Position numbers and translations under genes: made by a program. A stretch of DNA of 35,194 bases from a virus: the IMG/VR virus record IMGVR_UViG_3300031576_000200, positions 1 through 35,194 of that record. One strand, given 5' to 3'. The notes beneath the pieces are model-generated. The model was not told where the DNA came from. It did no database searches and saw only the letters and a program-made list of their open reading frames with translations. Below, piece after piece: positions 10,219 through 35,194 of this stretch; positions within the stretch are counted from its first letter, which is position 1, and every line of letters begins with the position of its first letter.

Positions 10219-10221
10219 GCC

Positions 10222-10965: not shown

Positions 10966-11011
10966 TCGTGCGCCGCCGGGCTCTCGGCCGGGCTGCGGAT
11001 CGGGACCCAGC

Positions 11012-12058: not shown

Positions 12059-12068
12059 GGGAGGGGCG

Positions 12069-12621: not shown

Positions 12622-12622
12622 C

Positions 12623-16335: not shown

Positions 16336-16430
16336 GGCTCGCGACACGTCGGGCCCCTCCCCGGGCCCACCGGCGCCACCCGTCGCCGTTCCAGATTCTG
16401 TCGGAATGCATCCCGAGGAAGGAGCGCACC

Positions 16431-16820: not shown

Positions 16821-16975
16821 TCGCGGCCCTGGCCCTCCGCTCAGGTGTGTCACCCCGCGAGTGGCTGGCGTATCCCGAGATCCTCGAACACGCCCTGACC
16901 ATCGCCCGGAACGAGGATTCGGCGCAGCGGCGCGAGGGCCTGCTCGATCGACTCAGGAGGCGCCATGGCGCGTGA
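16817..16975 (+). CDS. Tail assembly chaperone, downstream part (T-like)
   Basis: The frame encodes 52 residues from ATG 16817 (S-G-V-S-P-R-E-W-L-A-Y-P-E-I-L). The G-x-x-P-x-E-W-x-x-x-P pattern is typical of the second half of actinophage chaperones. It is in the -1 frame relative to the upstream gene, with no stop between the slippery site and this ATG. It is therefore most likely expressed as the C-terminal part of a fusion protein. ATGA coupling would also allow separate translation. The chaperones would coat and deliver the tape measure during tail assembly. Confidence 0.75.
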   Translation: MIAALALRSGVSPREWLAYPEILEHALTIARNEDSAQRREGLLDRLRRRHGA

Positions 16976-17363: not shown

Positions 17364-17365
17364 CC

Positions 17366-21498: not shown

Positions 21499-21500
21499 GG

Positions 21501-21842
21501 ATGGGCCACACGCTCAGGGCATGGGCCTACGTGAACCACGGCCGCTGGGTGGCCGACTGCCCCTTCTGCCCCTCCGCCGAGCTACTGGGCCCGCTACCGC
21601 TGGGAGGCGAGCGCCCGCCCAGGGCGTTCCTCTGTGCCGAGTGCGGCAACGCGTCGGTCGCGGACGGTCTATCGATCCGGATCGGCTGGCCCAGGTCCGA
21701 GGCGCTGGCCGCCATCGAGGCCCTACTCGGGCTGCGGCCCGACCCGATCAACCGGAACTGGGAGCGGCGCGAGACGCCGGCCGATCTCGCGCAGGAGAAC
21801 GCCGCGCACGGGCTCCCCGATCTCGGCCTGGGAGGTATCTGA
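21501..21842 (+). CDS. Zinc-ribbon protein in the tail block
   Basis: The 113-residue protein contains C20-P-F-C23 and C45-A-E-C48-G, a four-cysteine zinc ribbon. Its start GRWVADCPFC and the tail N-W-E-R-R-E-T-P-A-D-L are common to many phage tail operons of this kind. Function is unknown. The ATG is two bases after the tail gene stop. Confidence 0.7.
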   Translation: MGHTLRAWAYVNHGRWVADCPFCPSAELLGPLPLGGERPPRAFLCAECGNASVADGLSIRIGWPRSEALAAIEALLGLRPDPINRNWERRETPADLAQENAAHGLPDLGLGGI

Positions 21843-21845
21843 GCC

Positions 21846-22391
21846 ATGGTCTGGACGACGCCCCGCACCTGGACGACCGGCGAGGTCGTCACCGCCGCCA
21901 TCATGAACACCCACGTCCGCGACAACCTCAACTTCCTGCGGGCCCATCACGGCGCCCGCGTCTTCAAGAGCACCAGCCAGACCGTGGCCGGCGGCAACAC
22001 CGACGTGGTGAGCTTCAACTCCGAGGACTACGACACCGACGCCGCGCACGACAACGTGACGAACAACAGCCGGATCACGATCCCATCCGCGCTCGACGGG
22101 TTCTGGGAGGTGATCTTCGCCACCGATGTGGACGCCGACTTGTCGAACCACAACGGCCGCATGAGCCTCCAGGTCCGCAAGAACGCGGCGGGCGCAAGCG
22201 GGAGTGGGACCCAGCTCGAGAACAAGGGTTTCGATACCCACGCCAACATCCAGAGCGGGCTGATCACCTGGCAGGGATCCCTGGTGGCCGCCGATCACGT
22301 CGAAGCATTCTTCTTCTCCGCCACCGAAACCCGGGTCCTGGAGGCCGCGACGGCGGGCACCGCGATGACGGCCAAGTACCTCGGCAGCTGA
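21846..22391 (+). CDS. Tail fibre-like protein
   Basis: The 181-residue protein begins with W-T-T-P-R-T-W-T-T-G-E-V-V-T-A-A-I-M-N-T-H-V-R-D-N-L. This is a trimerising motif found at the N-terminus of many phage fibre and receptor-binding proteins. The rest is beta-rich, with Y-D-T-D-A-A-H and F-W-E-V-I-F-A-T-D-V segments, and resembles C1q/TNF-type jelly rolls. It would form the fibre or tip contact. The similarity to C1q is inferred and moderate. The ATG is four bases after the zinc-ribbon stop, and a GTG-start gene follows nine bases after its own stop. Confidence 0.75.
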   Translation: MVWTTPRTWTTGEVVTAAIMNTHVRDNLNFLRAHHGARVFKSTSQTVAGGNTDVVSFNSEDYDTDAAHDNVTNNSRITIPSALDGFWEVIFATDVDADLSNHNGRMSLQVRKNAAGASGSGTQLENKGFDTHANIQSGLITWQGSLVAADHVEAFFFSATETRVLEAATAGTAMTAKYLGS

Positions 22392-22399
22392 GGGCGACC

Positions 22400-23176
22400 G
22401 TGACCCTCCCGGGACACTCGGGGGCGATGGGGATCACCCACCTCCGCCGCTACCGCATCCAGGCCCCCGACGGCTCCTGGCGTGGGCCCTATCAACGGGC
22501 GGACGTCATGAACCGTGTCGACGGGCGCGTGCCGAAGCACGAGACCTACCACATCGAGAGGCGCGGCACCGGGGTGACAGGCGCCCCGATCCTCCGGCGC
22601 TCGCGCGCGATCGACGACTACGCCGACGCCCTGGCGGAGGGCAAGGTGGGCGAGGTCTTCCGCCTGGCCTGGGGAGACGCGGACCAGGAGATGGTCCTGG
22701 TGCGGACGGTCCAGATCGAGGTCCGCACCCTCGAGACTCCCGGCAACGCTCACGTCGACGCGTTCGCCTCGGAGGTCTTCACCCGTTGGCCCGGCGCCGA
22801 GAACTGGGGCACGCTCTCCCACCGCTACATCGGCACCACGCGAACCCCCTCTCAGCACTGCGCCTTCAAGCCACTGCGCGCGACCGAGGCCAGGCGCTAC
22901 GGCTTCGCCCTCGCTGGCGCCTCCGCGGGCGCGAACGCCATCGACCTCCACGACGACGCCCCCAAGCGCATGGGCGCCACCTTCACGCTCGCGATCGCTG
23001 AGGCCGATCGTTTCGGGATCGCCCACGCCATCTACAACCTGCGCCAATGGACCCCGGAGGACGGGCTCCGGCCCTACGATCCGCCCCCGGGGGGATCGGC
23101 GCACAAGGACCACGGCCACTACGCCTTCCGCCGGTTCCGGCGCGAGGACGAGCTCGCCTATCCGATCGGGCGGTGA
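22400..23176 (+). CDS. Putative cell-wall peptidase/endolysin-like protein
   Basis: The protein has 258 residues from GTG 22400. ATG 22427 is an alternative. The N-terminal 100 residues are of unknown type (THLRRYRIQAPDGSWRGPY...). The C-terminal 150 residues resemble the ARB-07466/M15-like peptidase pattern: a T-P-S-Q-H-C segment, A-N-A-I-D-L-H, an I-A-H-A-I-Y-N-L-R-Q-W segment, and the metal triad-like H-K-D-H-G-H-Y. These residues would bind zinc in a cell-wall peptidase. It sits before the membrane and holin genes, as a lysin should. The match is to motif order only and the N-terminus is unexplained. Alternatively it could be a tail-associated wall enzyme. Confidence 0.55.
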   Translation: MTLPGHSGAMGITHLRRYRIQAPDGSWRGPYQRADVMNRVDGRVPKHETYHIERRGTGVTGAPILRRSRAIDDYADALAEGKVGEVFRLAWGDADQEMVLVRTVQIEVRTLETPGNAHVDAFASEVFTRWPGAENWGTLSHRYIGTTRTPSQHCAFKPLRATEARRYGFALAGASAGANAIDLHDDAPKRMGATFTLAIAEADRFGIAHAIYNLRQWTPEDGLRPYDPPPGGSAHKDHGHYAFRRFRREDELAYPIGR

Positions 23177-23673
23177 GCCCCAACATGACGGCTACCCTGG
23201 TCGCGGACCTCGAGCGTCACCTGACCCTGTTCCTGGCCACCGGCGCGGTGCTGATCGGGTTGGGGTTCCTGGTCGGCCAGTTCCGCCTCGGCCGCATCCG
23301 AGGGGCCACCGAGGCCCTGCACCTGCAGGCAGCCGAGCTCGACGTGCTCCGCCAGCGGAACGTCACGATCACCGCGGACCTCAAGGCGGCCGAGGCCGAG
23401 GTCCACACCCTGCGCGGGATCGTCGAACAGCTCCGCGAGGACAACCGCGAGCTGCGCAGCCTCGTCATGGGCGAGACGGTCCCGCCGGCCCTGCAGCACG
23501 CCCTCGACACGGCGTTCGCCCGCGCCGTCGAACAGCTCGGGTCGACATTCGCGGCCGAGGCCGACCGGCGGATGACCGAGGTCATCGCATTCTTCGAGCA
23601 GCAGTTCCACCCGGTGGCTCAGGGGCTCGACCGGCTCCTGACCGCCGGCGGACGAGAGGGGGTGACAGCATGA
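23173..23673 (+). CDS. Membrane-anchored coiled-coil protein in the lysis cassette
   Basis: The protein is 166 residues from GTG 23173, overlapping the preceding stop. ATG 23185 is an alternative. One hydrophobic helix (LTLFLATGAVLIGLGFLVGQF) is followed by a long heptad-like coiled coil (LHLQAAELDVLRQRNVTITA through REDNRELRSL) and a second helix near the C-terminus. The pattern resembles inner-membrane spanins or other lysis helpers. It lies between the peptidase and holin. No spanin partner is visible, so the role is inferred. Confidence 0.6.
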   Translation: MSPNMTATLVADLERHLTLFLATGAVLIGLGFLVGQFRLGRIRGATEALHLQAAELDVLRQRNVTITADLKAAEAEVHTLRGIVEQLREDNRELRSLVMGETVPPALQHALDTAFARAVEQLGSTFAAEADRRMTEVIAFFEQQFHPVAQGLDRLLTAGGREGVTA

Positions 23674-23858
23674 AGGTCTCGCGGATCGTGAAGGCGATCG
23701 TCGCGGGCGTCGCTGGGCTCGCCCAGCTGGCGAACGCTGCCGTGAACGACGGCACCATCACCCAGCACGAGTGGTTCGTGATCGGGATCGCCGCGGCCGC
23801 CACGGTGGGCGTCTTCTTCGCCCCCAACGCGCCCAAGCCGGCGCCCGCATCCCACTAG
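23670..23858 (+). CDS. Holin
   Basis: The 62-residue protein has two hydrophobic stretches (IVKAIVAGVAGLAQLANAAV and WFVIGIAAAATVGVFFA) joined by N-D-G-T-I-T-Q-H-E-W. It ends in a short Pro/Ala tail. This layout, with T-x-x-E-W between the helices, is typical of actinophage holins that form membrane lesions at lysis. ATG 23670 overlaps the previous TGA. Two hairpins after the stop end the late operon. Confidence 0.8.
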   Translation: MKVSRIVKAIVAGVAGLAQLANAAVNDGTITQHEWFVIGIAAAATVGVFFAPNAPKPAPASH

Positions 23859-23872
23859 CCGCGGCCGAGGCG

Positions 23873-23896
23873 CGGCCGGAACCTTCCTCCCGGCCG
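23873..23896 (+). terminator. First hairpin after the late operon
   Basis: CGGCCGG and CCGGCCG form a seven-base-pair stem around a 10-base loop (AACCTTCCTC). It stands in front of a stronger hairpin and could be part of a tandem terminator. It starts 15 bases after the holin stop. Confidence 0.5.
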
Positions 23897-23907
23897 CCCC
23901 GTCGCTG

Positions 23908-23943
23908 GCGACAGGCCCCCATCTTCCCCCGGGGGCCTGTCGC
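23908..23943 (+). terminator. Main late-operon terminator hairpin
   Basis: GCGACAGGCCCCC (23908-23920) and GGGGGCCTGTCGC (23931-23943) make a perfect 13-base-pair stem around a 10-base loop. No T-tract follows, which is common for high-GC actinobacterial terminators. It lies 13 bases before a promoter. Confidence 0.8.
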
Positions 23944-23955
23944 GTCCGCGGCTGC

Positions 23956-23983
23956 TTGACTCGCCCCCCCAGAGTGACAAACT
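23956..23983 (+). promoter_or_regulatory. Sigma-70-type promoter of the early/replication operon
   Basis: A -35 box TTGACT (23956-23961) is followed by a 16-base spacer and a -10 box CAAACT (23978-23983) preceded by TGA, an extended -10. It reads toward GTG 24017, which has a GGAGGAAGGGGG ribosome site. The segment is the AT-richest around and lies just past the terminator. Confidence 0.65.
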
Positions 23984-24016
23984 CGCCTTCGCGCCTGGAC
24001 GGAGGAAGGGGGCGCC

Positions 24017-24184
24017 GTGATCGCGATCTGTGAGGGCAACGGCGGGCACCGCGTCCGCTGGACACGCCGGCGCCATAGACGCCTCCCCACCTGCCCCATC
24101 CACGACCGCCCCCTGCACGGCCTGCAGCACCCCTCCCAACAGAACCCCCGCCGGCGCCAGCCGAACGGGGGGCTTGCCCGGTGA
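24017..24184 (+). CDS. Small basic protein, first gene of the early operon
   Basis: The frame encodes 55 residues (MIAICEGNGGHRVRWTRRRHRRLPTCP...). A strong GGAGGAAGGGGG ribosome site precedes GTG 24017, and the end overlaps the next gene by GTGA. The protein is rich in Arg, Pro, His and Gln with two cysteines, C5 and C26. No family is recognised. The good ribosome site and overlap favour a real gene. Confidence 0.6.
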   Translation: MIAICEGNGGHRVRWTRRRHRRLPTCPIHDRPLHGLQHPSQQNPRRRQPNGGLAR

Positions 24185-24411
24185 CGCCGAGCCTCGAGGC
24201 CATCCTGGCGTTCGAGCGTGCCCATCCCGAGATCGGGCCCGCACGCGTACGCGCCGTCCGTGCCGCCTTCGGCATCGGCGTGCTGACCTACTCCATGGCT
24301 CTGGCGAAGATGCTCGAGAGCGACGAGCCCGACCGCCTCGACCCCATCACCACGGCCCGCCTGCGCCGGCGCCGGGCATGGTTGCGGGCCCGAGCGGGGC
24401 GCCGGCCATGA
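24181..24411 (+). CDS. DUF3263-like small protein
   Basis: The protein has 76 residues. The pattern A-I-L-A-F-E-R-A-H-P-E-I-G-P-A-R-V-R-A-V-R-A-A-F-G-I then L-T-Y-S-M-A-L-A-K-M-L-E-S followed by a P-I-T-T-A-R-L-R-R-R-R block matches DUF3263. This family is an actinobacterial helix-turn-helix-like one of unknown function. The normal -Y- follows FG. It is the clearest single hint of an actinobacterial host. GTG 24181 and the stop both overlap neighbours, so all three genes are coupled. Confidence 0.75.
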   Translation: MTPSLEAILAFERAHPEIGPARVRAVRAAFGIGVLTYSMALAKMLESDEPDRLDPITTARLRRRRAWLRARAGRRP

Positions 24412-24962
24412 CCGAGCGGCGGTTCCGCTTCCGCACCCGCTGGGGCATCGCCCTGCGGTACTCGGGCCTCTCGCCGGCCGCGCGCGCGGTCGCGCACGGG
24501 CTGGCCACCTTCATGAAGCACGACGGCTCGCGCTGCGGCCCGGGCCTGGATCGGATCACGCAAGCCACCGGATACTCGCGCGCCACCGTCTGCCGCGCCC
24601 TGGCAGAGCTGCAGGGCCAGGGCTGGATCCATCGCGGCCCGGCCGGCGGCCGCGGGAGCCCCACCGTCTACACGCCCACGCTGCCCCAGGGTGCCGAGGA
24701 ACGGGTCGAACAGGTGCTCGGAAAGGGTCGCACCCATGAGACCCTTTCGGGCCACAAAGGGTCGCACCCACGAGACGAAAGGGTCGCACCCATGAGACCC
24801 ACACCTATTAGCCTTGAAGAACCTGAGCGCGACGGCGGCGCCGTCGCCGATCCTGAATGGGTACGGCAACTGCTGGCCGAAGCCAGACGCCGGCTCACGC
24901 GGGGTGAGTCTCTCGACGGCCTGGGCGGGCCCGCACCGCCGGCCACGGCGGAGGAGGCCTGA
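24408..24962 (+). CDS. Winged-helix replication-type protein with internal iterons
   Basis: The protein has 184 residues. Residues 1-90 form a helix-turn-helix/winged-helix domain of the type found in phage and plasmid replication initiators: L-S-P-A-A-R-A-V-A-H-G-L-A-T, then I-T-Q-A-T-G-Y-S-R-A-T-V-C-R-A-L-A-E-L-Q. A following beta wing reads W-I-H-R-G...R-G-S-P-T-V-Y. The middle is disordered because it is written over three copies of a DNA repeat at 24721-24800. The C-terminus is charged (W-V-R-Q-L-L-A-E-A-R-R-R-L-T-R). Placing repeats inside the initiator gene is like lambda O with its origin. The protein would bind the repeats and start replication, which is inference. ATG 24408 overlaps the DUF3263-like stop. 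Confidence 0.75.
   Translation: MTERRFRFRTRWGIALRYSGLSPAARAVAHGLATFMKHDGSRCGPGLDRITQATGYSRATVCRALAELQGQGWIHRGPAGGRGSPTVYTPTLPQGAEERVEQVLGKGRTHETLSGHKGSHPRDERVAPMRPTPISLEEPERDGGAVADPEWVRQLLAEARRRLTRGESLDGLGGPAPPATAEEA
24721..24800. repeat. Three iterons; candidate replication origin
   Basis: Three direct copies of AGGGTCGCACCCAYGAGAC, each preceded by AA, start at 24722, 24756 and 24778. The spacings are 34 and 22 bases, so each copy is read in a different frame. The first copy sits in an inverted repeat with nine-base arms, GAAAGGGTC at 24721-24729 and GACCCTTTC at 24740-24748. A mildly AT-richer stretch follows (ACACCTATTAGCCTTGAAG). The arrangement suggests a DNA-level function, most likely an origin. 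Confidence 0.7.
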
Positions 24963-25108
24963 TGGCTCACCAGCTAGGCCGCATCGTGTGGGACCTCGCA
25001 CCACCACGACCCGACCGAGCCGACCGGCGGAGGGATCTCCTCGCCGGCTGCATCCTGGTCGGCATCGTGCTCGCGATCGGCGTGCTGATCGGGGCCTGGC
25101 TCTGGTGA
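24962..25108 (+). CDS. Small membrane protein
   Basis: The frame encodes 48 residues. The N-terminal half has R, D and P residues; the C-terminal half is one hydrophobic helix (LLAGCILVGIVLAIGVLIGAW). ATG 24962 overlaps the preceding TGA, and TGA 25106 overlaps the next GTG. Function is unknown. Its overlaps support a real gene. Confidence 0.6.
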   Translation: MAHQLGRIVWDLAPPRPDRADRRRDLLAGCILVGIVLAIGVLIGAWLW

Positions 25109-25605
25109 CGATCACGGCCGTCGACTTCGCCCTCATCATCCCGGGCCCGCCCGCCATCGCCTGGTCCGATCGGGTCCAACCCATCCCGTTGCACCGGGCA
25201 CGCATCACGGCCCACGGCAACCATCTGGTCGCCCTCGACCGTGAGCACCGGCACGACCTGCAGACCCGCTGGCGGTACGCCCGGCTCGTGCGGACCCCGC
25301 TGGAGGGCGACCTGGCGTTGTCGCTCCGGATCGCGGGGAGCACTCGGGTCCCGGACAACCGCGCGCGCAACGGGATCCGGCGCGCGGACCGGCCGGACCT
25401 CTCGAACGTGCTCAAGGCCGTCGAGGATGCCGCCAACGGCCTGCTCTGGGAAGACGACAGCCAGGTGCGGATCACCTACACCGAGCTGGTCGCCTGGGGG
25501 CCTGAGGTCGAGCCCGGCATGGCCCTTGACGTGTGGCAGATCGATGGTGCGGGGACCCAGGTACTTTCGCGGTTCCCGACCGGCGGCTGGGGCGCGGGGC
25601 ACTAG
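25105..25605 (+). CDS. rusA: RusA-family Holliday junction resolvase
   Basis: The 166-residue protein has an N-terminal beta region (IPGPPAIAWSDRVQ...) and R-P-D98-L-S-N-V-L-K-A-V-E-D-A-A-N-G-L-L-W-E-D117-D118-S-Q-V. This matches the catalytic RusA pattern D-x-x-N...K...D, with the following W-x-D-D. RusA cuts Holliday junctions at recombination or replication intermediates. A resolvase in the early operon next to the replication protein is common in phages. GTG 25105 overlaps the upstream stop. The neighbour downstream begins at the base after this stop. Confidence 0.85.
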   Translation: MTITAVDFALIIPGPPAIAWSDRVQPIPLHRARITAHGNHLVALDREHRHDLQTRWRYARLVRTPLEGDLALSLRIAGSTRVPDNRARNGIRRADRPDLSNVLKAVEDAANGLLWEDDSQVRITYTELVAWGPEVEPGMALDVWQIDGAGTQVLSRFPTGGWGAGH

Positions 25606-25776
25606 ATGGCCCCGCGACCCCGCGGCGACCGGTGGCGCGTCAAGGCCGGCGGGACCTGGATCACCGTCATCCGTGGGCAGCGTCCCCGGGTGGGCGGGAT
25701 GCTGAACGTGGCCCCCGGCGTCCGATGGAGGATCACGGCCGTCCAGCCGGTCGAACGAGAGTCGGTCCGAGCGTGA
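25606..25776 (+). CDS. Small basic protein, unknown function
   Basis: The frame encodes 56 residues (MAPRPRGDRWRVKAGGTWIT...). ATG follows the RusA TAG directly, and the end overlaps the next GTG. The beta-type short sequence with many Arg and Trp may bind nucleic acid. No family is recognised. Confidence 0.55.
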   Translation: MAPRPRGDRWRVKAGGTWITVIRGQRPRVGGMLNVAPGVRWRITAVQPVERESVRA

Positions 25777-25976
25777 ACGGCCACCCGGTCTACGAGGCCA
25801 CCAGCCCTGCGGCCGTCGGGGTCGCTTGCTCTGTCTGCGGCTCCCTGGTGCTCATGGAGAGCACCCACGCTCACGACCGATGGCACCGGGCGCTAGCCGC
25901 CGGCCTCGAACGCGCCGGCGTGGGCACCGGGCGCCCGCCCCTGGACGATCTGGACGGGGGCCGGCGTGGAGACTGA
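25773..25976 (+). CDS. Small C2H2-like zinc protein
   Basis: The 67-residue protein has C19-x2-C22 followed by H32, H34 and H38, compatible with one zinc finger. The C-terminus is Gly/Asp/Arg-rich. The gene is coupled to its neighbours by GTGA at its start and an 11-base overlap at its end. A nucleic-acid role is inferred only. Confidence 0.6.
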   Translation: MNGHPVYEATSPAAVGVACSVCGSLVLMESTHAHDRWHRALAAGLERAGVGTGRPPLDDLDGGRRGD

Positions 25977-26703
25977 TCCGGTTCAAGCGGCCGCGCGAGA
26001 CCTCCGACGCGAAGGATGGACGGTGCTGGTGGGCGGGTGGCCGGCGCTGCTCGCCCTCCGCGATGGGGATGCCATCATGGCCGTCGACGTCCGCCGGGAT
26101 CACCTGACGCTGGCGCAGCGCAAGATGCACGAGGCCCTCGAGCAGGTCGGGATCCGGGTCCACATCACGGGCAAGCGCCCGCCCCGCGATGGCCCCCAGC
26201 GGCCCTGGACCACGAAGGAGCTGCAGACACTTCGCGCCAACGCGGCCCAGGGGGCCGCCGGCGTGGCGGAGCTGCTGGATCGCTCCATCGCATCGGTCAA
26301 GCGCCAGGCCCAGCAGCAGCGGATAAGCCTCCGATTGGACGGCGAGCGCCGCGGCCTGCTGATCGGCCAGCCCAGGGCCATCAGCTTCCGATCCGGGGCG
26401 AACAAGCTCGCGCAGCTCGTGGAGCTCCGGCGCGCGGCGCTGGCCGGCGAGGTAGATCTGCAGATGATCGAGCGGCGCGTCCGGCTGATCGCGCACGGGG
26501 CCCCCCTCTGTCCCGCATGTACCGCACGCCCGATCGAGAAGGCGAGCACGGGCCTCTGCACCGACTGCCATCTGGATGGGCTCACCGACCAACACCGCCT
26601 GGCCTCTCGGACCGTGCTCCGCCAGCGGGAGCTCGACCTGCAGCGGCAGAACAAGGCACGCGCCCGGCGGGGAAGGGTTGCCAGCGCACCCCCAGGCATG
26701 TAA
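25966..26703 (+). CDS. Fusion of nuclease-like fold, Myb-like HTH and zinc ribbon
   Basis: The 245-residue protein has three parts. Residues 1-70 resemble a VRR-NUC/restriction-endonuclease fold: A-R-D-L-R-R-E-G-W-T-V, then D-A-I-M-A-V-D41-V-R-R and L-T-L-A-Q-R-K-M-H-E-A-L. The usual catalytic E-x-K is replaced by D-V-R-R. Residues 79-123 are a SANT/Myb-like helix-turn-helix (P-W-T-T-K-E-L-Q-T-L, S-I-A-S-V-K-R-Q-A). Residues 180-205 form a zinc ribbon with C182, C185, C198 and C201. Such a protein could bind DNA and cut or mark it. Whether the first domain is active is unclear. GTG 25966 overlaps the preceding gene. Confidence 0.6.
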   Translation: METDPVQAAARDLRREGWTVLVGGWPALLALRDGDAIMAVDVRRDHLTLAQRKMHEALEQVGIRVHITGKRPPRDGPQRPWTTKELQTLRANAAQGAAGVAELLDRSIASVKRQAQQQRISLRLDGERRGLLIGQPRAISFRSGANKLAQLVELRRAALAGEVDLQMIERRVRLIAHGAPLCPACTARPIEKASTGLCTDCHLDGLTDQHRLASRTVLRQRELDLQRQNKARARRGRVASAPPGM

Positions 26704-26737
26704 GGCTGCCCGGCTCACCGACCCGAAAGGGGGAGAG

Positions 26738-27214
26738 ATGCGTAGCTTCACGATCACCCTCCTCGTGGCCGCGCTGCTGGCGACGATCGCGCCGCCGGCG
26801 GCCGCCAACCACGCGAGGGGACCCTGCACGGGCTACCGCGCCCGAGCAGCCGACATCGAACATCCCGCCACCCGGCGCATCGTGGCGGCTGAACGAACCA
26901 TCGACCTGACGTGGTGCCTGTGGCGGGCGCTGGACGCCGACCGCGTCGTGCGCTGGTCCACCCTGCTCGACCTGGGGCAGCGGGAGTCCGGCTTCATCCC
27001 CTGGGCTTTCAACCGGACGGGCTGCAACGGCTACGGCTGCGGGGGCGTGTTCCAACATCACCTAGCCTACTGGCCCGGACGAGCCCGGAACCTGCCACGA
27101 CGGTGGTACCCCCACCAGTGGCCGGGGATCGGGTGGGGGAACCCCCGCGCGAACGTCCACGCGGCCCTCAGGATGATCAAGGCGCAGGGCGGGATCTGCC
27201 CGGCCTGGTGCTAG
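26738..27214 (+). CDS. Secreted lytic-transglycosylase-like protein
   Basis: The 158-residue protein has a signal peptide-like N-terminus (MRSFTITLLVAALLATIAPP) ending with A-A-A-N-H. The rest resembles an SLT/lysozyme-like fold: L-L-D-L-G-Q-R-E83-S-G-F with the likely catalytic glutamate, N-G-Y-G-C-G-G-V-F-Q-H, and N-V-H-A-A-L-R-M-I near the end. Four or more cysteines fit an exported fold. It would cleave peptidoglycan outside the membrane. Its place at the end of the early operon, far from the lysis genes, suggests a role other than final lysis. A good AAAGGGGGAGAG site precedes ATG 26738. An alternative is a host-like protein carried as cargo. Confidence 0.7.
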   Translation: MRSFTITLLVAALLATIAPPAAANHARGPCTGYRARAADIEHPATRRIVAAERTIDLTWCLWRALDADRVVRWSTLLDLGQRESGFIPWAFNRTGCNGYGCGGVFQHHLAYWPGRARNLPRRWYPHQWPGIGWGNPRANVHAALRMIKAQGGICPAWC

Positions 27215-27341
27215 CGTTCTCAGTGCCCCCTCTCCGCTGAGCGGGGCATACCCGGGCGACCGGGGGGTGGGCGGTCAATCTTCCCGTCCCGTGAGCCGGG
27301 GTCGCGGACCTCGCATCCCGCGCCCCGGGCCCTCCGTCGCC

Positions 27342-27370
27342 TGGACATTCCGGTTCGGGGGCCTTATCGT
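27342..27370 (+). promoter_or_regulatory. Promoter for a leaderless transcript
   Basis: The -35 TGGACA (27342-27347), a 17-base spacer and the -10 TATCGT (27365-27370) sit so that transcription would begin at or next to ATG 27377. A leaderless mRNA is therefore expected, as often in actinobacteria. Bases 27365-27377 share the 13-mer TATCGTGACGGCA with 34897-34909. The upstream part of the gap, from 27215, contains only weak GC-rich inverted repeats and no clear terminator. Confidence 0.65.
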
Positions 27371-27376
27371 GACGGC

Positions 27377-27637
27377 ATGCACGTGACCGCGAAAGCTCTC
27401 CGCCGGGCCCTGCAGGCGGACGCACCCTGGATCAGCCTGCAGCCGGCCCGCATGGTCTGTCTGCGGTGCGGCATGGGGGCGCCGATCCCCCAGCCCGTCA
27501 CGCTGCAGGGAGCCGTGGCCATGGCCATCGCCTTCCTCGAGTGGCACGTGAGCTGCCCGCTAACGGGCGCGGCCGCGCGCGGCGAGCAGCTTCGGATCCC
27601 GGCCCCCATGGCCGAGCAGGTCCGGCTCCCGGCCTGA
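27377..27637 (+). CDS. Small CCHC-type zinc protein
   Basis: The 86-residue protein has C28-x2-C31 and H57-x2-C60, a likely zinc site, with a hydrophobic helix (LQGAVAMAIAFLEWHV) between. ATG 27377 has no ribosome site; it lies seven bases after a -10 box, so the mRNA may be leaderless. The ORF ends 10 bases before the HNH gene. No family is named with confidence. Confidence 0.6.
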   Translation: MHVTAKALRRALQADAPWISLQPARMVCLRCGMGAPIPQPVTLQGAVAMAIAFLEWHVSCPLTGAAARGEQLRIPAPMAEQVRLPA

Positions 27638-27647
27638 TTCCGGGGGA

Positions 27648-28052
27648 ATGGCGGCGCCGCGGCGGCGAGCGATCCCCCGGCCTTGTATCGACTGCGGTCG
27701 GCGCACCTACGTCGGCCGGCGGTGTGACGACTGCCGGCCGAGGTACGAGGCCAAGCGGAACGAAGACGCGATCTGGCGCGCGGCCTATCGCTCGCCCCTG
27801 TACCGGACCGAGCGCGCGGCCGTACGCGATCGCGCCGGCGGGCGTTGCGAGGCCTACGCCCCTGCGGGCAACGAGCGCTGCCCCGAGCCCGGCGTAGAAG
27901 CCCACCACCTGCGCCCGCTCTCGAGCGCCCGTACGCTCGAGGAGGCCCTGGCTCTCTGCGTCCGCTCGAACCTGGCCTGGGTGTGTGCCAGGCACAATCC
28001 ACGGGGCCCTCAGCGGGCTCCTAACGGGGGCGCACACGATCCGGGCCTCTAG
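27648..28052 (+). CDS. HNH endonuclease
   Basis: The 134-residue protein has an N-terminal zinc knuckle (C13-x2-C16 and C28-x2-C31). The nuclease core has G-G-R-C-E-A-Y, then V-E-A-H86-H87-L-R-P-L and a following V-R-S-N-L-A-W-V-C-A-R-H-N. This is the C...HH...N...H(N) order of HNH enzymes. HNH proteins often help terminase at packaging or act as homing nucleases. Here the gene stands alone, not beside terminase. A GGGGGA ribosome site precedes ATG 27648. Two hairpins follow the stop. Confidence 0.85.
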   Translation: MAAPRRRAIPRPCIDCGRRTYVGRRCDDCRPRYEAKRNEDAIWRAAYRSPLYRTERAAVRDRAGGRCEAYAPAGNERCPEPGVEAHHLRPLSSARTLEEALALCVRSNLAWVCARHNPRGPQRAPNGGAHDPGL

Positions 28053-28065
28053 GGCGCACTCCTGC

Positions 28066-28121
28066 CCCAGGTCATGCCTGGGCCGCGAGGCGGCGCCAGG
28101 GGGGGCGCTGCGCGTGCCCCC
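28066..28121 (+). terminator. Two hairpins after the HNH gene
   Basis: CCCAGG and CCTGGG pair around TCATG at 28066-28082. GGGGGC and GCCCCC pair around a nine-base loop at 28101-28121. They fill the start of the 152-base gap before a promoter and may act as a terminator. No T-run is present. Confidence 0.45.
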
Positions 28122-28151
28122 GGCAGCCCTCGATGAATCTGGCTGCAAGGC

Positions 28152-28181
28152 TTGCTACCAGATGTCCGCATCGCATACACT
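28152..28181 (+). promoter_or_regulatory. Promoter of the small-gene operon
   Basis: TTGCTA (28152-28157), an 18-base spacer and TACACT (28176-28181) form a good sigma-70-type promoter. It stands 23 bases before ATG 28205, which has a GAAGGGAGAAG ribosome site. The stretch is locally less GC-rich than its surroundings. Confidence 0.65.
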
Positions 28182-28204
28182 CAGGGTCGAGGAAGGGAGA
28201 AGAG

Positions 28205-28489
28205 ATGCGGATCGATGAGTGCGAGTACACGGACCGCGGCCAGGGCCACTTCGGCGCGAAGCGCGGATGGTTCGCGAGGGTGAACGACGAGGGCGCCCGT
28301 AGCGGCCGCACGCTCAACCTCTCGCGGCTGGACGGCGAGACCGAGTGGACCATGGACGCCCTGTTCCTCTCCAACGGCTACCCGGTCTTCGTTCACGGCT
28401 TCGGTTCCCGCGTGACGATCCCGCAAGTGCTGATGGACCCCGACACGGTCGCGGCGCTCGATGCCCGCGCCAGAGGAAGGAGGGCCTGA
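28205..28489 (+). CDS. Unknown small protein
   Basis: The 94-residue protein is mixed alpha/beta in look (HFGAKRGWFARVNDEGARSG, EWTMDALFLSNGYPVFVHGF). The ATG has a good GAAGGGAGAAG site and a promoter directly upstream. Its C-terminal basic tail (DARARGRRA) precedes a two-base gap to the next gene. No family is recognised. Confidence 0.65.
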   Translation: MRIDECEYTDRGQGHFGAKRGWFARVNDEGARSGRTLNLSRLDGETEWTMDALFLSNGYPVFVHGFGSRVTIPQVLMDPDTVAALDARARGRRA

Positions 28490-28491
28490 GG

Positions 28492-28722
28492 ATGGCCACG
28501 AAGAAGAAGCAGGGACCGGCGCTCTCGCCGGCGCAGAAGGCCTGGGAGACCCGGCGTGCCGCCGGCGACCCTGGGGCCGCAGCCCGCAAGGCCTGGGAGA
28601 CCCGCAAGGCCGCTGCGACCAAGGCGAAGAAGGGGGGCAAGACCACGGACAAAGCGACGAAGAAGGCGACGACCGCCAAGCCCCGAACCCGGAACGTTCG
28701 GCGCGAGGCCAAGGTCGCTTGA
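28492..28722 (+). CDS. Lysine/alanine-rich basic protein with short repeats
   Basis: The 76-residue protein carries two copies of K-A-W-E-T-R-[RK]-A-A and a Lys/Thr/Ala-rich tail (KAKKGGKTTDKATKKATTAK), histone-tail-like. It may bind DNA non-specifically or be a small nucleoid-like protein. That is inferred from composition only. AGGAAGGAGGG precedes ATG 28492. A hairpin follows the stop. Confidence 0.65.
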   Translation: MATKKKQGPALSPAQKAWETRRAAGDPGAAARKAWETRKAAATKAKKGGKTTDKATKKATTAKPRTRNVRREAKVA

Positions 28723-28735
28723 CCCAGCGCGCCTC

Positions 28736-28762
28736 CGACCCCGGCCAGTGCGGCCGGGGTCG
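28736..28762 (+). terminator. Perfect 11-bp hairpin
   Basis: CGACCCCGGCC and GGCCGGGGTCG form an 11-base-pair stem with a five-base AGTGC loop. GCGCG-type bases on both sides could extend it. No T-run follows. Like the other hairpins in this window it may end or attenuate transcription. Confidence 0.65.
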
Positions 28763-28785
28763 CCGCGCGAGAGGAGAGATGCGGC

Positions 28786-29154
28786 ATGAGCACCGACCTG
28801 TACGACTCCGAGACCTTCGGGGACTTCACCCCGGAGGTCTTCCGTATCCCCTGCCCCGCCTGCGGCGGCGCCCGGATCATCGGCGTGGTGGGGGGCACCG
28901 TCCGATGCACGGCCTGCGGGCAGGGCTGGCATCCCGCCGGCATCCTGGGCACGCGCTTCTGCTCCCAGGCGACCGAGGTCACGATCAGCCCCACCGCGGC
29001 GCCGGCATTCGAGCAGCTGCTGGGGGCGCTGCTCTTGACCGGCTACGTGACCGCGGCAGACGACACGCTCCGCCCCGACGAGCACCGGGCACTGCGGATC
29101 TTCACCCCGGAGGGCGAGGTCCTACGGGTGGCGCTGGTCAGGGGTGCGCTGTGA
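28786..29154 (+). CDS. Zinc-ribbon protein
   Basis: The 122-residue protein has an N-terminal zinc ribbon with C23-x2-C26-G-G and C41-x2-C44-G-x-G-W. A C-terminal alpha/beta part follows (FEQLLGALLLTGYVTAAD, ALRIFTPEGEVLRVALV). The GAGAGGAGAG ribosome site is shared with an out-of-frame ATG at 28779. The end overlaps the next GTG. Function is unknown. Confidence 0.7.
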   Translation: MSTDLYDSETFGDFTPEVFRIPCPACGGARIIGVVGGTVRCTACGQGWHPAGILGTRFCSQATEVTISPTAAPAFEQLLGALLLTGYVTAADDTLRPDEHRALRIFTPEGEVLRVALVRGAL

Positions 29155-29372
29155 ACGTCCCGCGACCCGATGAGCGTTTCCCCCAGGGGCACGCACCATC
29201 GACCTGGGTCGTGGCCTGGGCCTGGGACGGGCGCTGTATCCACCGTCAGAGGCTCCCCGGGCGAGACGCCGGCATCCGGCGCGAAGCCGATCGGCGGGCC
29301 CTGATCCTGATCTCCGACGCGGAGGTCATGCACGTCTACGTCGGCGACGACGAGAGGGGAGGGAAGCGGTGA
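29151..29372 (+). CDS. Unknown small protein
   Basis: The frame encodes 73 residues from GTG 29151 (GTGA overlap). W-V-V-A-W-A-W-D-G-R-C-I-H-R-Q-R and A-L-I-L-I-S-D-A-E-V-M-H-V-Y-V are the main ordered-looking segments. The next gene overlaps by GTGA. No family is recognised. Confidence 0.55.
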   Translation: MNVPRPDERFPQGHAPSTWVVAWAWDGRCIHRQRLPGRDAGIRREADRRALILISDAEVMHVYVGDDERGGKR

Positions 29373-29587
29373 GCGAGGAACGAGCGGGGGATCTGCTCGA
29401 CGCGCTCGAGGCCGGGCTGTACCTGATCGCTCAGGCGACCCGGGACTGGGTGGTTCGCGACGTCGTGTGCGGCCCCCCAGGTGCCATCCTGGTCAAGCTG
29501 GGGGCGGAGGACGTGTGGGCGGTCCGGGTCGAACCCTGGACGCCTCTCCCGGCTTCGCGGGACCTGCTGCGGAGGGGGGCACGATGA
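29369..29587 (+). CDS. Unknown small protein
   Basis: The frame encodes 72 residues from GTG 29369. The N-terminus is helical (EERAGDLLDALEAGLYLIAQ); the rest is beta-type (CGPPGAILVKLGAEDVWAVRV). Both ends overlap neighbours. Function is unknown. Confidence 0.55.
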   Translation: MSEERAGDLLDALEAGLYLIAQATRDWVVRDVVCGPPGAILVKLGAEDVWAVRVEPWTPLPASRDLLRRGAR

Positions 29588-29802
29588 TGGCCGACGGCCA
29601 CGACAGCTACGAACAGGAACACGGGGCCCACGGTCGGGCGCTGCAGGCGCTCCTATGGCGCGGCAACGTAGGCGATCACCTGGCCCAGTTCATCCGGGAG
29701 CTGATCGAGTCCGAGGTCCTGCACCCCGAGATCAGTCCGCAGCTGGTCGCCGAGGGCGAGCGCCTGCTGCACGCCTGGGCCGAGACGAGGGAGGAGTCGT
29801 GA
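29584..29802 (+). CDS. Unknown small acidic protein
   Basis: The frame encodes 72 residues from ATG 29584 (ATGA overlap). It is helical (LQALLWRGNVGDHLAQFIRE, LIESEVLHPEISPQLVAEGE), with several His residues at the start. No family is recognised. Confidence 0.55.
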   Translation: MMADGHDSYEQEHGAHGRALQALLWRGNVGDHLAQFIRELIESEVLHPEISPQLVAEGERLLHAWAETREES

Positions 29803-29812
29803 GGGGGTGAAG

Positions 29813-30004
29813 ATGGCCACAGAGGGAAGGCCCGATCTGACGGGCCACGAGCTGGCTTCGTGCGATCTGTGCGGAGACGGCCCCGGGTTCGACGTCCTGG
29901 TGTTCGACGTCATGCGACCCGGGACCATGGTCGGCGTGCTGGTGCTCGACGCCAAGTGGGAGCACCTGATCCGAAGCGGCGCGATGAGGATCGCGCGCGC
30001 CTGA
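29813..30004 (+). CDS. Small protein with a CxxC knuckle
   Basis: The frame encodes 63 residues from ATG 29813, chosen because GAGGGGGTG lies just before it. GTG 29807 would add two residues. It has C17-D-L-C20 and a core V-L-V-F-D-V-M. It precedes the ParB gene by 16 bases. Function is unknown. Confidence 0.55.
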   Translation: MATEGRPDLTGHELASCDLCGDGPGFDVLVFDVMRPGTMVGVLVLDAKWEHLIRSGAMRIARA

Positions 30005-30020
30005 GAGGAAGGGAACGACG

Positions 30021-31439
30021 ATGGCAACCAAGACAGCCAAGAAGGCCGCGCCGAAGGCGCGGAAGCCGGCAGCACGGAAGGCGCCGGCGCCGGCGCTTCC
30101 ACACCGGGGTGAGGCCATCACCTACATCTCGGTTGCCAACACGGCGCCCCATCCGGGCAATCCCCGGACCAACCTCGGGGACCTGGCAGAGCTGGCCGCC
30201 TCGATCAAGGCGGTGGGGGTCCTGCAGCCCGTCGTGGCTCGCCCCAAGATGCCCGTGGGCTGGGAGCTGATAATCGGGCACCGGCGGCTGGCCGCGGCTC
30301 GACTCGCCGGCGTCAAGACCATCCCGGCCATCATCCATGACCTGAACGACAGGTACGCCATCGAGGCCATGCTGGTGGAGAACCTGCAGCGCCAGGACCT
30401 GACCGCGTTCGAGGAAGCCAACGGCTACAAGGCCCTGGTGGATGCGGGCATGACCCAGGCGACGATCTGGAAGCGGGTCGGCAAGTCGCAATCGCACGTG
30501 TCGAAGCGGCTCGCGCTGCTCGGCATCCCGGTCGAGGCCCGGGGCCTGATCGAAGACGGCACCGTGCCCGTGAACGACGCCAAGGCCCTGCGTGGGCTCG
30601 CGAAGCTCCCAGCCGCCGCGCAGAAGAAGGCGGTCAAGCGGATCCGCGATCGCTCGCGGTCCTACGGCAGCGCGGACCCTGGGGCGGAGATACGCAAGAC
30701 CGAGGAGGAGCTGGCCTTCGAGGCGAAGATGGCTGGGTGTGTGGCACGCGCCGAGAAGGACCCTGCCCCCGTCGTCACGCTCGATCCGTACAAGTCCCGG
30801 ATCGGAGGGCCGCGGTACCTGGGCAAGGGGCACGACGAGGTTGACGTGCCGACCTCGAAGCACATGAAGCTCGACTGCCACGCCATCGCGGTCTACGCCC
30901 CGAGCTGGGAGCGCTCCGCCTCGGGCATCCGCGTGCGCTACGTGTGCACCGATCCGACCAAGCACGCGACCGGGGAACAACGCAAGATCGACGCCAAGAT
31001 CGCGGCGCAGCGCCAACAGAAGGCCGACGACACGCGGCTGCTGAACGAGAAGGCCAACCAACGGCGAGCCTTCGAGATCGAGGTCCTGACCAAGGCCGGA
31101 GCGGACGATGCGGCTCAGCTGCTGCTCGCGGCCGCGGTCAACGACTTTTACGGGGACGCCGGGGGATCGGCCGCCGCCCTGCTGGGCATCGAACCGCCCG
31201 CGGACACGCCCGCGGGGTCCGCCGACACACCGTGGGCGCTGCTGCTGGAAGAACGGGCAAGGAAGTCGAAGGCGGAGGCCTGGCGGATCGGTGCGGCGGT
31301 CGGCGTGGAGCTGCTCGAGGAATGCCTGACCGGCTACGGGAAAGATTGGGCGGCCCCGGCCTTGTTCGGGTGGCTGGAATCGAAGGGCTACGAGACCAGT
31401 CCGCAGGAGCGGGTCGAGTACATGGGATCGGGCAAATGA
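30021..31439 (+). CDS. ParB-family protein
   Basis: The protein has 472 residues. An Ala/Lys tail-like N-terminus (residues 1-28) leads into a ParB/Noc core: P-H-P-G-N-P-R, G-V-L-Q-P-V-V, I-I-G86-H-R-R-L-A-A-A and the nucleotide-contact box E120-N-L-Q-R124. A helix-turn-helix follows at about 142-163 (TQATIWKRVGKSQSHVSKRL). The remaining 300 residues are unrelated to chromosomal ParB and include a Cys/His-containing segment. No ParA is present. Phage ParB-like proteins may bind DNA for partition of plasmid prophages or have nuclease roles. Without ParA, partition is not assured. An AGAGGAAGGG site precedes ATG 30021. The end overlaps the next gene by ATGA. Confidence 0.82.
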   Translation: MATKTAKKAAPKARKPAARKAPAPALPHRGEAITYISVANTAPHPGNPRTNLGDLAELAASIKAVGVLQPVVARPKMPVGWELIIGHRRLAAARLAGVKTIPAIIHDLNDRYAIEAMLVENLQRQDLTAFEEANGYKALVDAGMTQATIWKRVGKSQSHVSKRLALLGIPVEARGLIEDGTVPVNDAKALRGLAKLPAAAQKKAVKRIRDRSRSYGSADPGAEIRKTEEELAFEAKMAGCVARAEKDPAPVVTLDPYKSRIGGPRYLGKGHDEVDVPTSKHMKLDCHAIAVYAPSWERSASGIRVRYVCTDPTKHATGEQRKIDAKIAAQRQQKADDTRLLNEKANQRRAFEIEVLTKAGADDAAQLLLAAAVNDFYGDAGGSAAALLGIEPPADTPAGSADTPWALLLEERARKSKAEAWRIGAAVGVELLEECLTGYGKDWAAPALFGWLESKGYETSPQERVEYMGSGK

Positions 31440-31798
31440 CGGCGGGACCGTTCCTGGGCCTCGCGGAGGTCGGGGAGCTGCTCGGCCTCACGCGGCAGGT
31501 CGCGCAGGCATGGAACCGGCGGGGGAAGCTTCCCCCGCCGGTCGCCCGCCTCCGCATGGGTCCCCTGTGGCTCCGCGACCAGTTCAGCGATGACGATGCG
31601 GACCTGCGATCGCCCACGCTCAGCGCCTTCATGGACGGCACGCCGGACACGATCACCATGGCCAAGGAGCTGCTCCCGGGGGCCGCGCTCTTCGATCGCT
31701 ACCTCTGGTGGGCCTTCGATCATGACGGGCATCGCTTCGCGATCGAGGTCGACCTGACCACATGGGCGAGACAGCCAAGCGATTCGCCGCCAGCCTGA
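31436..31798 (+). CDS. Excisionase/MerR-like HTH protein
   Basis: The 120-residue protein has an N-terminal winged-helix/MerR-like motif: F-L-G-L-A-E-V-G-E-L-L-G-L-T-R-Q-V-A-Q-A-W, then P-P-P-V-A-R-L, G-P-L-W-L-R-D-Q-F. The C-terminal part (DRYLWWAFDHDGHRFAIEVD) is of unknown type. It may regulate or assist recombination, but no integrase is near. The ATG overlaps ParB's stop. Confidence 0.65.
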   Translation: MTAGPFLGLAEVGELLGLTRQVAQAWNRRGKLPPPVARLRMGPLWLRDQFSDDDADLRSPTLSAFMDGTPDTITMAKELLPGAALFDRYLWWAFDHDGHRFAIEVDLTTWARQPSDSPPA

Positions 31799-31959
31799 TC
31801 GCCGAGGCGGCGGAGGCCGAACGGCTCCGCCGGGCGGGGCAGCCGGGCGCCTGCGTGGCCGTCCGGCTGCCCTTCGGCCTGGTGATCGAGCTGCACCCAC
31901 GCACCGCGCGCGATCTCGCGAAAGCGGTCCGCACGGCGCTCGAGAAGGAGAGCACATGA
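31762..31959 (+). CDS. Unknown small protein
   Basis: The frame encodes 65 residues (ETAKRFAASLIAEAAEAERL, then V-A-V-R-L-P-F-G-L-V-I-E-L). ATG 31762 is 37 bases inside the preceding gene. The end overlaps the DUF5131 start by ATGA, which supports it. It looks alpha/beta and has no recognised family. Confidence 0.5.
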   Translation: MGETAKRFAASLIAEAAEAERLRRAGQPGACVAVRLPFGLVIELHPRTARDLAKAVRTALEKEST

Positions 31960-32888
31960 CGACGGAGACGAAGATCAGCTGGACCAACCGGACGTGGAAC
32001 CCGGTCACAGGATGCTCGAAGGTGTCGGCCGGCTGCGATCACTGCTACGCCGAGACGCTGAGCCTCGACCGCGGGTGGAGTCGCTTCCCCTGGGAGAAGC
32101 GGTACGCCCAGGACAACGTCACGCTCCACCCGGAGCGCCTGCGGGCACCGATCGGCTGGCACGAGCCGGCCATGGTCTTCGTGAACAGCATGTCCGACCT
32201 GTTCCACGAGCTGGCGCCGGCGTCGTTCGTGGCGGAGGTCTTCGCGACGATGCTGCTCGCACCCCAGCACACCTACCAGGTGCTCACGAAGCGGCCCGGG
32301 CGCATGGTGTCGATGCTCGGTGACCAGTACTTCCGCTCCGCCATCATGCGGGCCATCGCGGTCCAAGAGAAGGGCCAAACGAGCCTCTTCAACGAGCCGG
32401 CGTGGCCCCCGCCCAACATCTGGCTCGGCACATCGGTCGAGGATCAACGCTGGGCCGACGTCCGAGTGGCCAAGCTCCTCGAGCTGCCCGCGGGCTGGAC
32501 GCGCTTCCTATCCGTCGAGCCGATGCTGGGGCCGGTGCACCTCCGCCCCTGGCTCGCGAGGATCGAGCCTGGCGAGCTGGAAGCGGGTCCGATCTCGGAG
32601 GCCACCGGCCCGCTCCCGGAGGTTCACCCCGCCCTCGCCTGGGTGATCGTCGGCGGTGAATCGGGCCAGCACCTGGCTGGCCTGGGGCCGGGAGACGACC
32701 GATGGATGCTGCAGAGCTGGGCCCGGGACGTTCGGGACGCCTGCGTCGATGCCGGGGTGGCCTTCTTCTACAAGCAAGACGCCGGCGTGCGGACAGAGCT
32801 GCGGCCCTGGCTGGTCGAGGAGGATGGCTCACGCTGGGAGTGGCACCAGTTCCCCGGCCGGCTCACCCCGCCGAGGAGGCTGGCATGA
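31956..32888 (+). CDS. DUF5131 (phage Gp37/Gp68) protein, radical-SAM-like
   Basis: The 310-residue protein has the family start I-S-W-T-N-R-T-W-N-P-V-T-G-C20-S-K-V-S-A-G-C27-D-H-C30-Y-A-E, a Cys cluster like those that bind a [4Fe-4S] group. Conserved blocks follow: F-V-N-S-M-S-D-L-F-H, V-L-T-K-R-P-G-R-M, W-L-G-T-S-V-E-D, F-L-S-V-E-P-M-L-G and V-I-V-G-G-E-S-G. This is the complete family core at its normal length. The reaction is not known. Phage copies may modify DNA, RNA or protein. It is the third gene of a run of overlapping genes. Confidence 0.85.
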   Translation: MTTETKISWTNRTWNPVTGCSKVSAGCDHCYAETLSLDRGWSRFPWEKRYAQDNVTLHPERLRAPIGWHEPAMVFVNSMSDLFHELAPASFVAEVFATMLLAPQHTYQVLTKRPGRMVSMLGDQYFRSAIMRAIAVQEKGQTSLFNEPAWPPPNIWLGTSVEDQRWADVRVAKLLELPAGWTRFLSVEPMLGPVHLRPWLARIEPGELEAGPISEATGPLPEVHPALAWVIVGGESGQHLAGLGPGDDRWMLQSWARDVRDACVDAGVAFFYKQDAGVRTELRPWLVEEDGSRWEWHQFPGRLTPPRRLA

Positions 32889-33493
32889 AGGACGTGGAGG
32901 ATCTGCTGACCACGATCATCGGCGACGTAGGTCCCACACAGTTCGAGGCAGCCGTCCACGAGATCGAGCGCAAGAACAGGCTTAGGAAGAGACTGCAGCG
33001 TGAGGAGGCCAAACACGCCCGGGAGCTGATCGCTCGCCAGGGTCGCGCGGATGCACGAGCGCTCTACGTTCGCTGGAAGAGCATCCCCGAGCTTGGACGG
33101 GCGATAGGTCTCAGAGGGGGCTTCAGCGATCTCTATGCTTTCGTGTACGGGGGCTCCAGTGGTGGGCGCTCCTACCCACCACGGCTTAGGGAGCTTGCGA
33201 TCCGGGAAGGCATCACCGACGAGGAACGCCGATGGGCGACGAACTGGTTCGAGAAAATACTGAGAGATGACGAGCATGCAGAGGCCGTTGCCGCGCACCG
33301 ACTCGAGGCACGCTACCGGCTTGACGATGAGATCACTTACCTCAAGGAACTGCTCCGATTGGGCACAACCATCGAGCAGGAGCTCGTGCGGGTGCGGGCG
33401 CTCCGAGCGGCTCTGATTGAGACTGAGACCTCCGGCCGGGGCCATGGCAGTCGCTCAGAACTGCTCGCACAGCGGAAGGGTGAACTCCCATGA
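32885..33493 (+). CDS. Unknown protein with distinctive base use
   Basis: The 202-residue protein has a charged helical N-terminus (EIERKNRLRKRLQREEAKHA), then S-I-P-E-L-G-R-A-I-G-L-R-G-G-F-S-D-L-Y-A-F-V. A long helical C-terminal half follows (RLEARYRLDDEITYLKELLR). Its codons are visibly less GC-rich than its neighbours, with ATA, AGA, AGG, CTT and TTA-type choices rarely used elsewhere in the window. ATG overlaps the DUF5131 stop. It may be a recent arrival. No family is recognised. Confidence 0.65.
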   Translation: MKDVEDLLTTIIGDVGPTQFEAAVHEIERKNRLRKRLQREEAKHARELIARQGRADARALYVRWKSIPELGRAIGLRGGFSDLYAFVYGGSSGGRSYPPRLRELAIREGITDEERRWATNWFEKILRDDEHAEAVAAHRLEARYRLDDEITYLKELLRLGTTIEQELVRVRALRAALIETETSGRGHGSRSELLAQRKGELP

Positions 33494-33570
33494 CCGATAT
33501 CGTGGAGGCTCTGGCGGCGCTCGCCCGCAAGATGGGCGGGACGGTCCGTATCCGGTGGGAGGAGGTCTGA
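33490..33570 (+). CDS. Possible 26-residue peptide
   Basis: ATG 33490 overlaps the preceding TGA. The frame ends at TGA 33568-33570, which overlaps the next ATG (TGATG). The peptide starts MTDIVEALAALARKMGG. Double overlap suggests a real or coupling ORF, but it is too short for confidence. Confidence 0.4.
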   Translation: MTDIVEALAALARKMGGTVRIRWEEV

Positions 33571-33710
33571 TGGAGCTGTTCGAGTGGTTCGTGCTCGCCG
33601 CGCTTGCCACGTCGAGCGTCCTGCAAGCCCTCATGATCCGGCGTCTGCAGCGTGAGACCCGGGTGCTCACGAGGATGTTCTTCGCCCGCCTCGATCCCCC
33701 GAGGCCCTGA
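33570..33710 (+). CDS. Small membrane protein
   Basis: The frame encodes 46 residues. The N-terminal 25 residues form one hydrophobic helix (FEWFVLAALATSSVLQALMI); the rest is basic (RRLQRETRVLTRMFFARL). A single-pass membrane protein of unknown role. Its last 44 bases overlap the antisense methyltransferase tail. Confidence 0.5.
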   Translation: MELFEWFVLAALATSSVLQALMIRRLQRETRVLTRMFFARLDPPRP

Positions 33711-34890: not shown

Positions 34891-34896
34891 CCGAGC

Positions 34897-34917
34897 TATC
34901 GTGACGGCAGCGTCACG
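34897..34917 (+). promoter_or_regulatory. Divergent control region: -10 box and palindrome
   Basis: TATCGT (34897-34902) is a TAnnnT -10 box that would start transcription near 34909 toward the HTH gene. A palindrome CGTGACG-GCAG-CGTCACG (34900-34917, seven-base arms) overlaps the box and start. TATCGTGACGGCA here equals the sequence at 27365-27377. No good -35 at the normal distance is visible, so an activator may be needed. Confidence 0.6.
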
Positions 34918-34932
34918 GAAAGGGGGCAGCTC

Positions 34933-35130
34933 ATGCGGCTGTCGATGCGAGAGCAGCAGGTCCTGGAGGGCTGGGCCAGGGGCCAGACCCTGCAGCAGAT
35001 CGCGAACGACTGCGGGATCGCCCACGGCACGGCGCAGGTCTACGCCAAGCGCCTCCGCGCCAAGGCCCAGCCCCATCGCCGGCGTACAGCTATCGTGGCC
35101 CAGGCCTATCGCGAGGGGCTCATACGCTGA
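34933..35130 (+). CDS. LuxR-type helix-turn-helix protein
   Basis: The 65-residue protein consists of a single GerE/LuxR-type HTH: L-S-M-R-E-Q-Q-V-L-E-G-W-A-R-G-Q-T-L-Q-Q-I-A, then G-I-A-H-G-T-A-Q-V-Y-A-K-R-L-R-A-K-A. It has a basic C-terminal arm (RRRTAIVAQAYR). There is no sensor domain. An AAAGGGGGCAG ribosome site precedes ATG 34933. The gene is divergent from the methyltransferase across a palindrome, a layout typical of a regulator of its own region. It may control the methyltransferase, itself, or both. Confidence 0.75.
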   Translation: MRLSMREQQVLEGWARGQTLQQIANDCGIAHGTAQVYAKRLRAKAQPHRRRTAIVAQAYREGLIR

Positions 35131-35151
35131 GGCCGTGACCGCTCGGCCAGG

Positions 35152-35194
35152 ATGCCGGGCATGGACATCAAGCGCGTAGCGTCCGCCGATCCGG
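35152..35194 (+). CDS. Possible start of a gene running off the window
   Basis: ATG 35152 (or ATG 35161) opens a frame (MPGMDIKRVASADP) that stays open to the window edge. GGCCAGGA lies just upstream. Only 14 codons are visible, so the call is weak. Confidence 0.25.
   Translation, partial: MPGMDIKRVASADP

Follow-up and report, generated by a model that had tools for sequence, protein, structure and literature searches.

The window analysed here is the whole of a viral record, 35,194 bases at 70.7% GC, and two of its noncoding gaps, 27215-27376 and 34891-34932, stand at the heads of rightward gene runs and hold the same 13-mer core, TATCGTGACGGCA. An exact search of both strands of the whole record places this string on the plus strand at two positions, 27365-27377 and 34897-34909, which confirms the positions given in the original prediction; the search for more copies that it had proposed returned no further exact match on either strand of the 35,194 bases. 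With two mismatches allowed, only two extra sites appeared, at 12769 and 12823 on the minus strand, in a coding tandem-repeat array (the 318-aa gene at 12623-13579 carries a tandem array with copies spaced roughly 54 bases). We refer to the two exact copies as site 1 and site 2, and the features around them are as follows.

27342 to 27347, plus strand: -35 box TGGACA of site 1, from a sigma-70 scan
27365 to 27377, plus strand: first copy of the 13-mer, with -10 box TATCGT, discriminator GACGGC and a predicted +1 A that opens the start codon ATG
27377 to 27637, plus strand: 86-aa gene identified by codon pattern, predicted leaderless, at the head of the right-arm gene run
27382 to 27387, plus strand: second CGTGAC of site 1, in direct orientation, within the first codons of the 86-aa gene
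33667 to 34890, minus strand: divergent ParB-like/DNA methyltransferase gene (phrog_498, profile match)
34897 to 34909, plus strand: second copy of the 13-mer, with -10-like TATCGT and the same discriminator and predicted +1 as the first
34900 to 34917, no strand assigned: perfect palindrome CGTGACG-GCAG-CGTCACG (7-4-7) from an inverted-repeat search, a candidate operator overlapping the second copy
34933 to 35130, plus strand: 65-aa GerE/LuxR-type helix-turn-helix (HTH) gene, preceded by the purine-rich ribosome site AAAGGGGG

The gene set behind this map is approximate, having come from a simple codon-score prediction followed by refinement by hand, and it leaves 20 noncoding gaps totalling 1,843 bases. 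The methyltransferase start was first predicted at 35076 and was reset to 34890 because the phage codon pattern is seen in the plus-strand HTH frame and is absent from the minus-strand extension. This phage has two phrog_498 ParB-like/DNA methyltransferase genes, at 795-1988 and 33667-34890. The frame that opens at ATG 35161 is stop-free across the end-to-start junction to 317 (35161-35194 plus 1-317; 116 aa), and the record may therefore be a circular or circularly permuted genome. Relatives of the major capsid protein were found at 4 viral and 38 genome loci; as we read the titles of the latter, 37 are actinobacterial and one is a Planctomycetota MAG. Because these relatives are almost all actinobacterial, the host is likely actinobacterial as well, and leaderless genes are common in such bacteria.

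The start at 27377

At site 1, TGGACA is followed by a 17-base spacer, TATCGT (27365-27370), six bases and the ATG at 27377, so that a TANNNT-type -10 box makes the first base of the ATG the predicted +1 and a TTGACN-like -35 box, sought at 16-19 bases, is present at 17. This is the sole sigma-70-type match in the window (none in a scan of 1-18000, one in 17000-35194). When gene heads were simulated 20,000 times and scored for a -35 box matching at least five of six positions, a 16-18 base spacer and a TANNNT box 5-8 bases ahead of the start, the probability of such an arrangement among 20 heads was 5e-5; one of the 20 real heads, that at 27377, has it. The start has no close Shine-Dalgarno sequence, the nearest G-run ending 15 bases upstream.

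Together with structural relatives in Actinomycetota, the -35 box, the spacing, the -10 box, the exact distance to the ATG and the lack of a close Shine-Dalgarno sequence support the proposal that transcription would begin at the ATG and yield a leaderless mRNA. The assignment of site 1 as a predicted leaderless promoter of the sigma-A type found in actinobacteria is well supported, and such a promoter would be ordinary for phages of actinobacteria. Farther along the right arm, TTGCTA-18-TACACT (28176-28181) forms a second plausible promoter upstream of the 28205 gene, which has a Shine-Dalgarno sequence.

The 86-aa frame has the codon pattern of the phage, with GC of 0.75, 0.56 and 0.91 at positions 1-3 against 0.70, 0.50 and 0.90 in the training genes. 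Its protein has no credible relatives in viral contigs (four stretches fit the pattern and none was confirmed) or in phage records. A weak match in contig G003 (32% identity, 13.7 bits) was treated as spurious because it falls in a 441-aa frame that overlaps a match to the window's gene at 5640-6908.

The 13-mer occurs in none of the 42 capsid-relative loci (766,792 bases). Taken literally, this is the absence from relatives that the original prediction had named as counting against it, but these loci are uninformative on conservation, none of the 42 having matched either gene. The 15-mer TATCGTGACGGCATG, which includes the ATG, is present at 46 viral loci in 36 distinct contexts; at 11 of them it starts an open reading frame of at least 60 aa with an in-frame stop no more than 60 codons upstream, and three of these 11 (L016, L037 and L048) also have a -35 box matching at least four of six positions. 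A control string, found at 14 loci in 10 distinct contexts, gave no such case; the numbers, three of 36 contexts and none of 10 for this single control, are too small for significance.

The gap at 34891-34932

Site 2 lies in a 42-base gap between the leftward ParB-methyltransferase gene and the rightward GerE-type HTH gene. Its TATCGT, at 34897-34902, is the sole TANNNT of the gap, and the best -35 box at 16-19 bases matches two of six positions. The original prediction had taken each copy of the 13-mer as a -10 box plus start region; that description suits site 1, and at site 2 it is possible but weaker.

The second copy does overlap a palindrome, as had been proposed. By chance, a 42-base gap would contain a perfect inverted repeat of this kind (7-base arms, loop of at most 4) with a probability of 2.6%, or 1.4% when the gap is shuffled. 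The exact palindrome occurs at three loci in other viral contigs, two with identical surroundings and one unrelated, and these have no context in common. A CRP-type site was considered and rejected here, since GTGA and TCAC are separated by 6 bases in the CRP consensus and are 8 bases apart in this palindrome. The record holds other symmetrical or repeated elements. A second CGTGAC dyad, CGGTCACGAAACGTGACCG, with its arms facing the opposite way, lies at the left end (34-52); it was set aside as a third operator, for if the record is circular it would be inside the open frame that spans the junction. A perfect 28-base palindrome, ACCGGCGGGGGAAGCTTCCCCCGCCGGT, lies within a predicted gene at 31515-31542, and the region 24721-24798 has AAAGGGTCGCACCCA in three near copies, two of them with TGAGACCC behind, and includes inverted parts.

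On the rightward side of the gap, a profile search places the product of the 34933 gene in the GerE/LuxR HTH family (PF00196) with 42.9 bits against a curated cut-off of 23.5 (E 3.8e-11). Searches for relatives of this 65-aa protein found no close one; four stretches matched and none was confirmed. The methyltransferase on the other side has relatives at three viral loci (five stretches matched) and in 13 phage records, none of which covers 80% of the protein; inspection of the three viral loci by eye showed no copy of the palindrome and no divergent HTH gene.

What the shared 13-mer may be

When the two sites are aligned on the 13-mer, the identity fills precisely the interval between the opening base of the -10 box and the predicted +1, both included, and 14 of the 48 other columns agree, about the chance level for GC-rich DNA. 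The dyad follows different limits: it starts three bases later, extends eight bases further and is incomplete at site 1. Identity that is confined to the interval from -10 to +1 and falls to chance outside it points to contacts with RNA polymerase and not to an operator, and this extent, together with the missing second half of the palindrome at site 1, favours a shared promoter core over one regulator. Our preferred reading, with a probability of about 0.6, is that both copies are promoter cores for the host's principal sigma-A-type RNA polymerase and that the palindrome is a separate operator. The original prediction had left the choice between one phage regulator and a sigma preference acting on both genes, and it is the sigma preference that fits better.

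On that reading, the host's main sigma factor would recognise the -10 box TATCGT, the discriminator GACGGC and the +1 A at the head of each rightward run. Preferences given for Mycobacterium tuberculosis in the available part of PMC3898074 agree with the -1 C and +1 A of this core. At site 1, the -35 box 17 bases upstream would complete the promoter and the first transcribed base would be the A of the ATG; the resulting message, leaderless for its first gene, would carry the genes of the right arm from 27377 to about 33493. The core at site 2, without a good -35 box, would give a leadered transcript (about 24 nt) for the GerE-type HTH protein and the genes beyond. The palindrome over +1 would be an operator in its own right; most simply, the GerE-type protein would repress its own gene there, with an effect on the divergent methyltransferase gene as well. 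Judged by its position and family alone, this protein probably limits its own transcription. By the sequence statistics, the same core is most likely used at both heads. What is seen directly is the sequence, the spacing, the palindrome, the gene layout and the HTH family, and from these the transcription starts, the sigma factor, the operator function and the protein acting there are inferred. Against the preferred reading stand the two-of-six -35 box at site 2, the unclear enrichment of TANNNT boxes, the small number of 15-mer cases and the post hoc character of the tests. In M. tuberculosis, promoters have no conserved -35 motif, so a -35 box is not obligatory there, according to the available part of PMC3898074.

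Those tests were chosen after the data had been seen and rest on the approximate gene set. The record contains 401 repeated 13-mers, many of them from the tandem array at about 12.7-13.4 kb, against 58-121 in 30 Markov simulations, and a repeated 13-mer as such is unremarkable at 70.7% GC. A same-strand 13-mer common to noncoding gaps arose in 14.6% of 2,000 simulations and 15.7% of 20,000. One that also contains a TANNNT box arose in 1 of 20,000, so the anchoring of the repeat on a -10 box is not unremarkable and goes beyond ordinary repeat chance, in a post hoc test on an approximate gene set. Taken by themselves, TANNNT boxes show no clear excess in noncoding DNA: the gaps contain four, one of them inside a 26-aa frame, against about 1.7 expected.

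A single phage regulator, for instance the 34933 HTH protein, could instead bind the CGTGACG-containing 13-mer at both genes and control both promoters, with a full dyad at its own gene and a half-site or direct CGTGAC repeat at the leaderless gene. The 13-mer does contain a full half of the dyad, the HTH gene adjoins that dyad, a second CGTGAC 14 bases downstream at site 1 keeps the half-site model alive, and the BPs repressor has full and partial sites at several promoters (available part of PMC4557955). We nevertheless consider this unlikely: the dyad is complete at site 2 only, reading the sequence at site 1 gives two matches out of seven in the partner half, the shared stretch opens three bases ahead of the half-site and stops at +1 in the manner of a promoter core, and the genome has just two copies of the 13-mer.

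Coincidence appears similarly improbable. Here site 1 would be a real leaderless promoter, the match at 34897 would be due to chance and the 34933 gene would be transcribed from elsewhere, while the palindrome might have no function, or might form a hairpin in the RNA of a longer leader. Repeated 13-mers are indeed common in a GC-rich genome, the chance of a shared noncoding one is 15-16%, site 2 is without a -35 box and the palindrome region folds as RNA; the single TANNNT-bearing shared 13-mer in 20,000 simulations and the position of TATCGT as the only TANNNT of the 42-base gap argue the other way. Quite doubtful is a bifunctional 13-mer, both a -10/start core and a half-site for the GerE-type regulator. 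The small protein would then bind the full dyad at its own promoter, its target at the leaderless promoter would be a half-site or direct repeat, and the phage's two units of rightward transcription would be coupled.

Known systems and significance

Leaderless phage promoters have already been described, and the present case would be a further example. In the available part of PMC4351075, the SigA-like promoters of Cluster O mycobacteriophages are predicted to yield leaderless messages, and some of these promoters lie in a divergent intergenic region. Like site 1, their PL1, PR2 and PL2 are SigA-like, stand at the head of phage genes and have a predicted +1 that coincides with the initial base of the start codon; they are predicted throughout the cluster's five phages, whereas ours is one site in one genome. 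The M. tuberculosis leaderless genes, which the available part of PMC3898074 puts at 26% of genes with a primary start site, likewise have a TANNNT -10 box near the start codon, a purine start and no Shine-Dalgarno sequence, but their starts were measured, whereas ours is predicted. The start-associated sequences of Cluster K phages, as described in the available part of PMC3203893, are also short 13-bp strings that directly precede start codons, most of them pointing the same way. They have an AGGAG-type ribosome-binding core and many copies, whereas the 13-mer here has two copies, a different sequence and no such core, and we do not class it with them.

For the palindrome, the nearest likeness is to the BPs operators, where a palindrome lies between divergent genes, a regulator gene adjoins it and related sites occur at other promoters (available part of PMC4557955). 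Those sites were demonstrated by footprint and reporter, whereas ours are read from sequence alone and site 1 lacks the palindrome; any link to BPs-type regulation is tentative. The 65-aa protein, little more than a GerE domain, recalls the single-domain LuxR/GerE regulators of Actinobacteria (available part of PMC3466318), with the difference that it is phage-borne and that our searches found no close relative.

Overall, the phage is small and has few named relatives, and the analysis provides a clean promoter map of it that can be tested. If it is true that the HTH protein acts on both promoters, the two sites would form a compact genetic switch.
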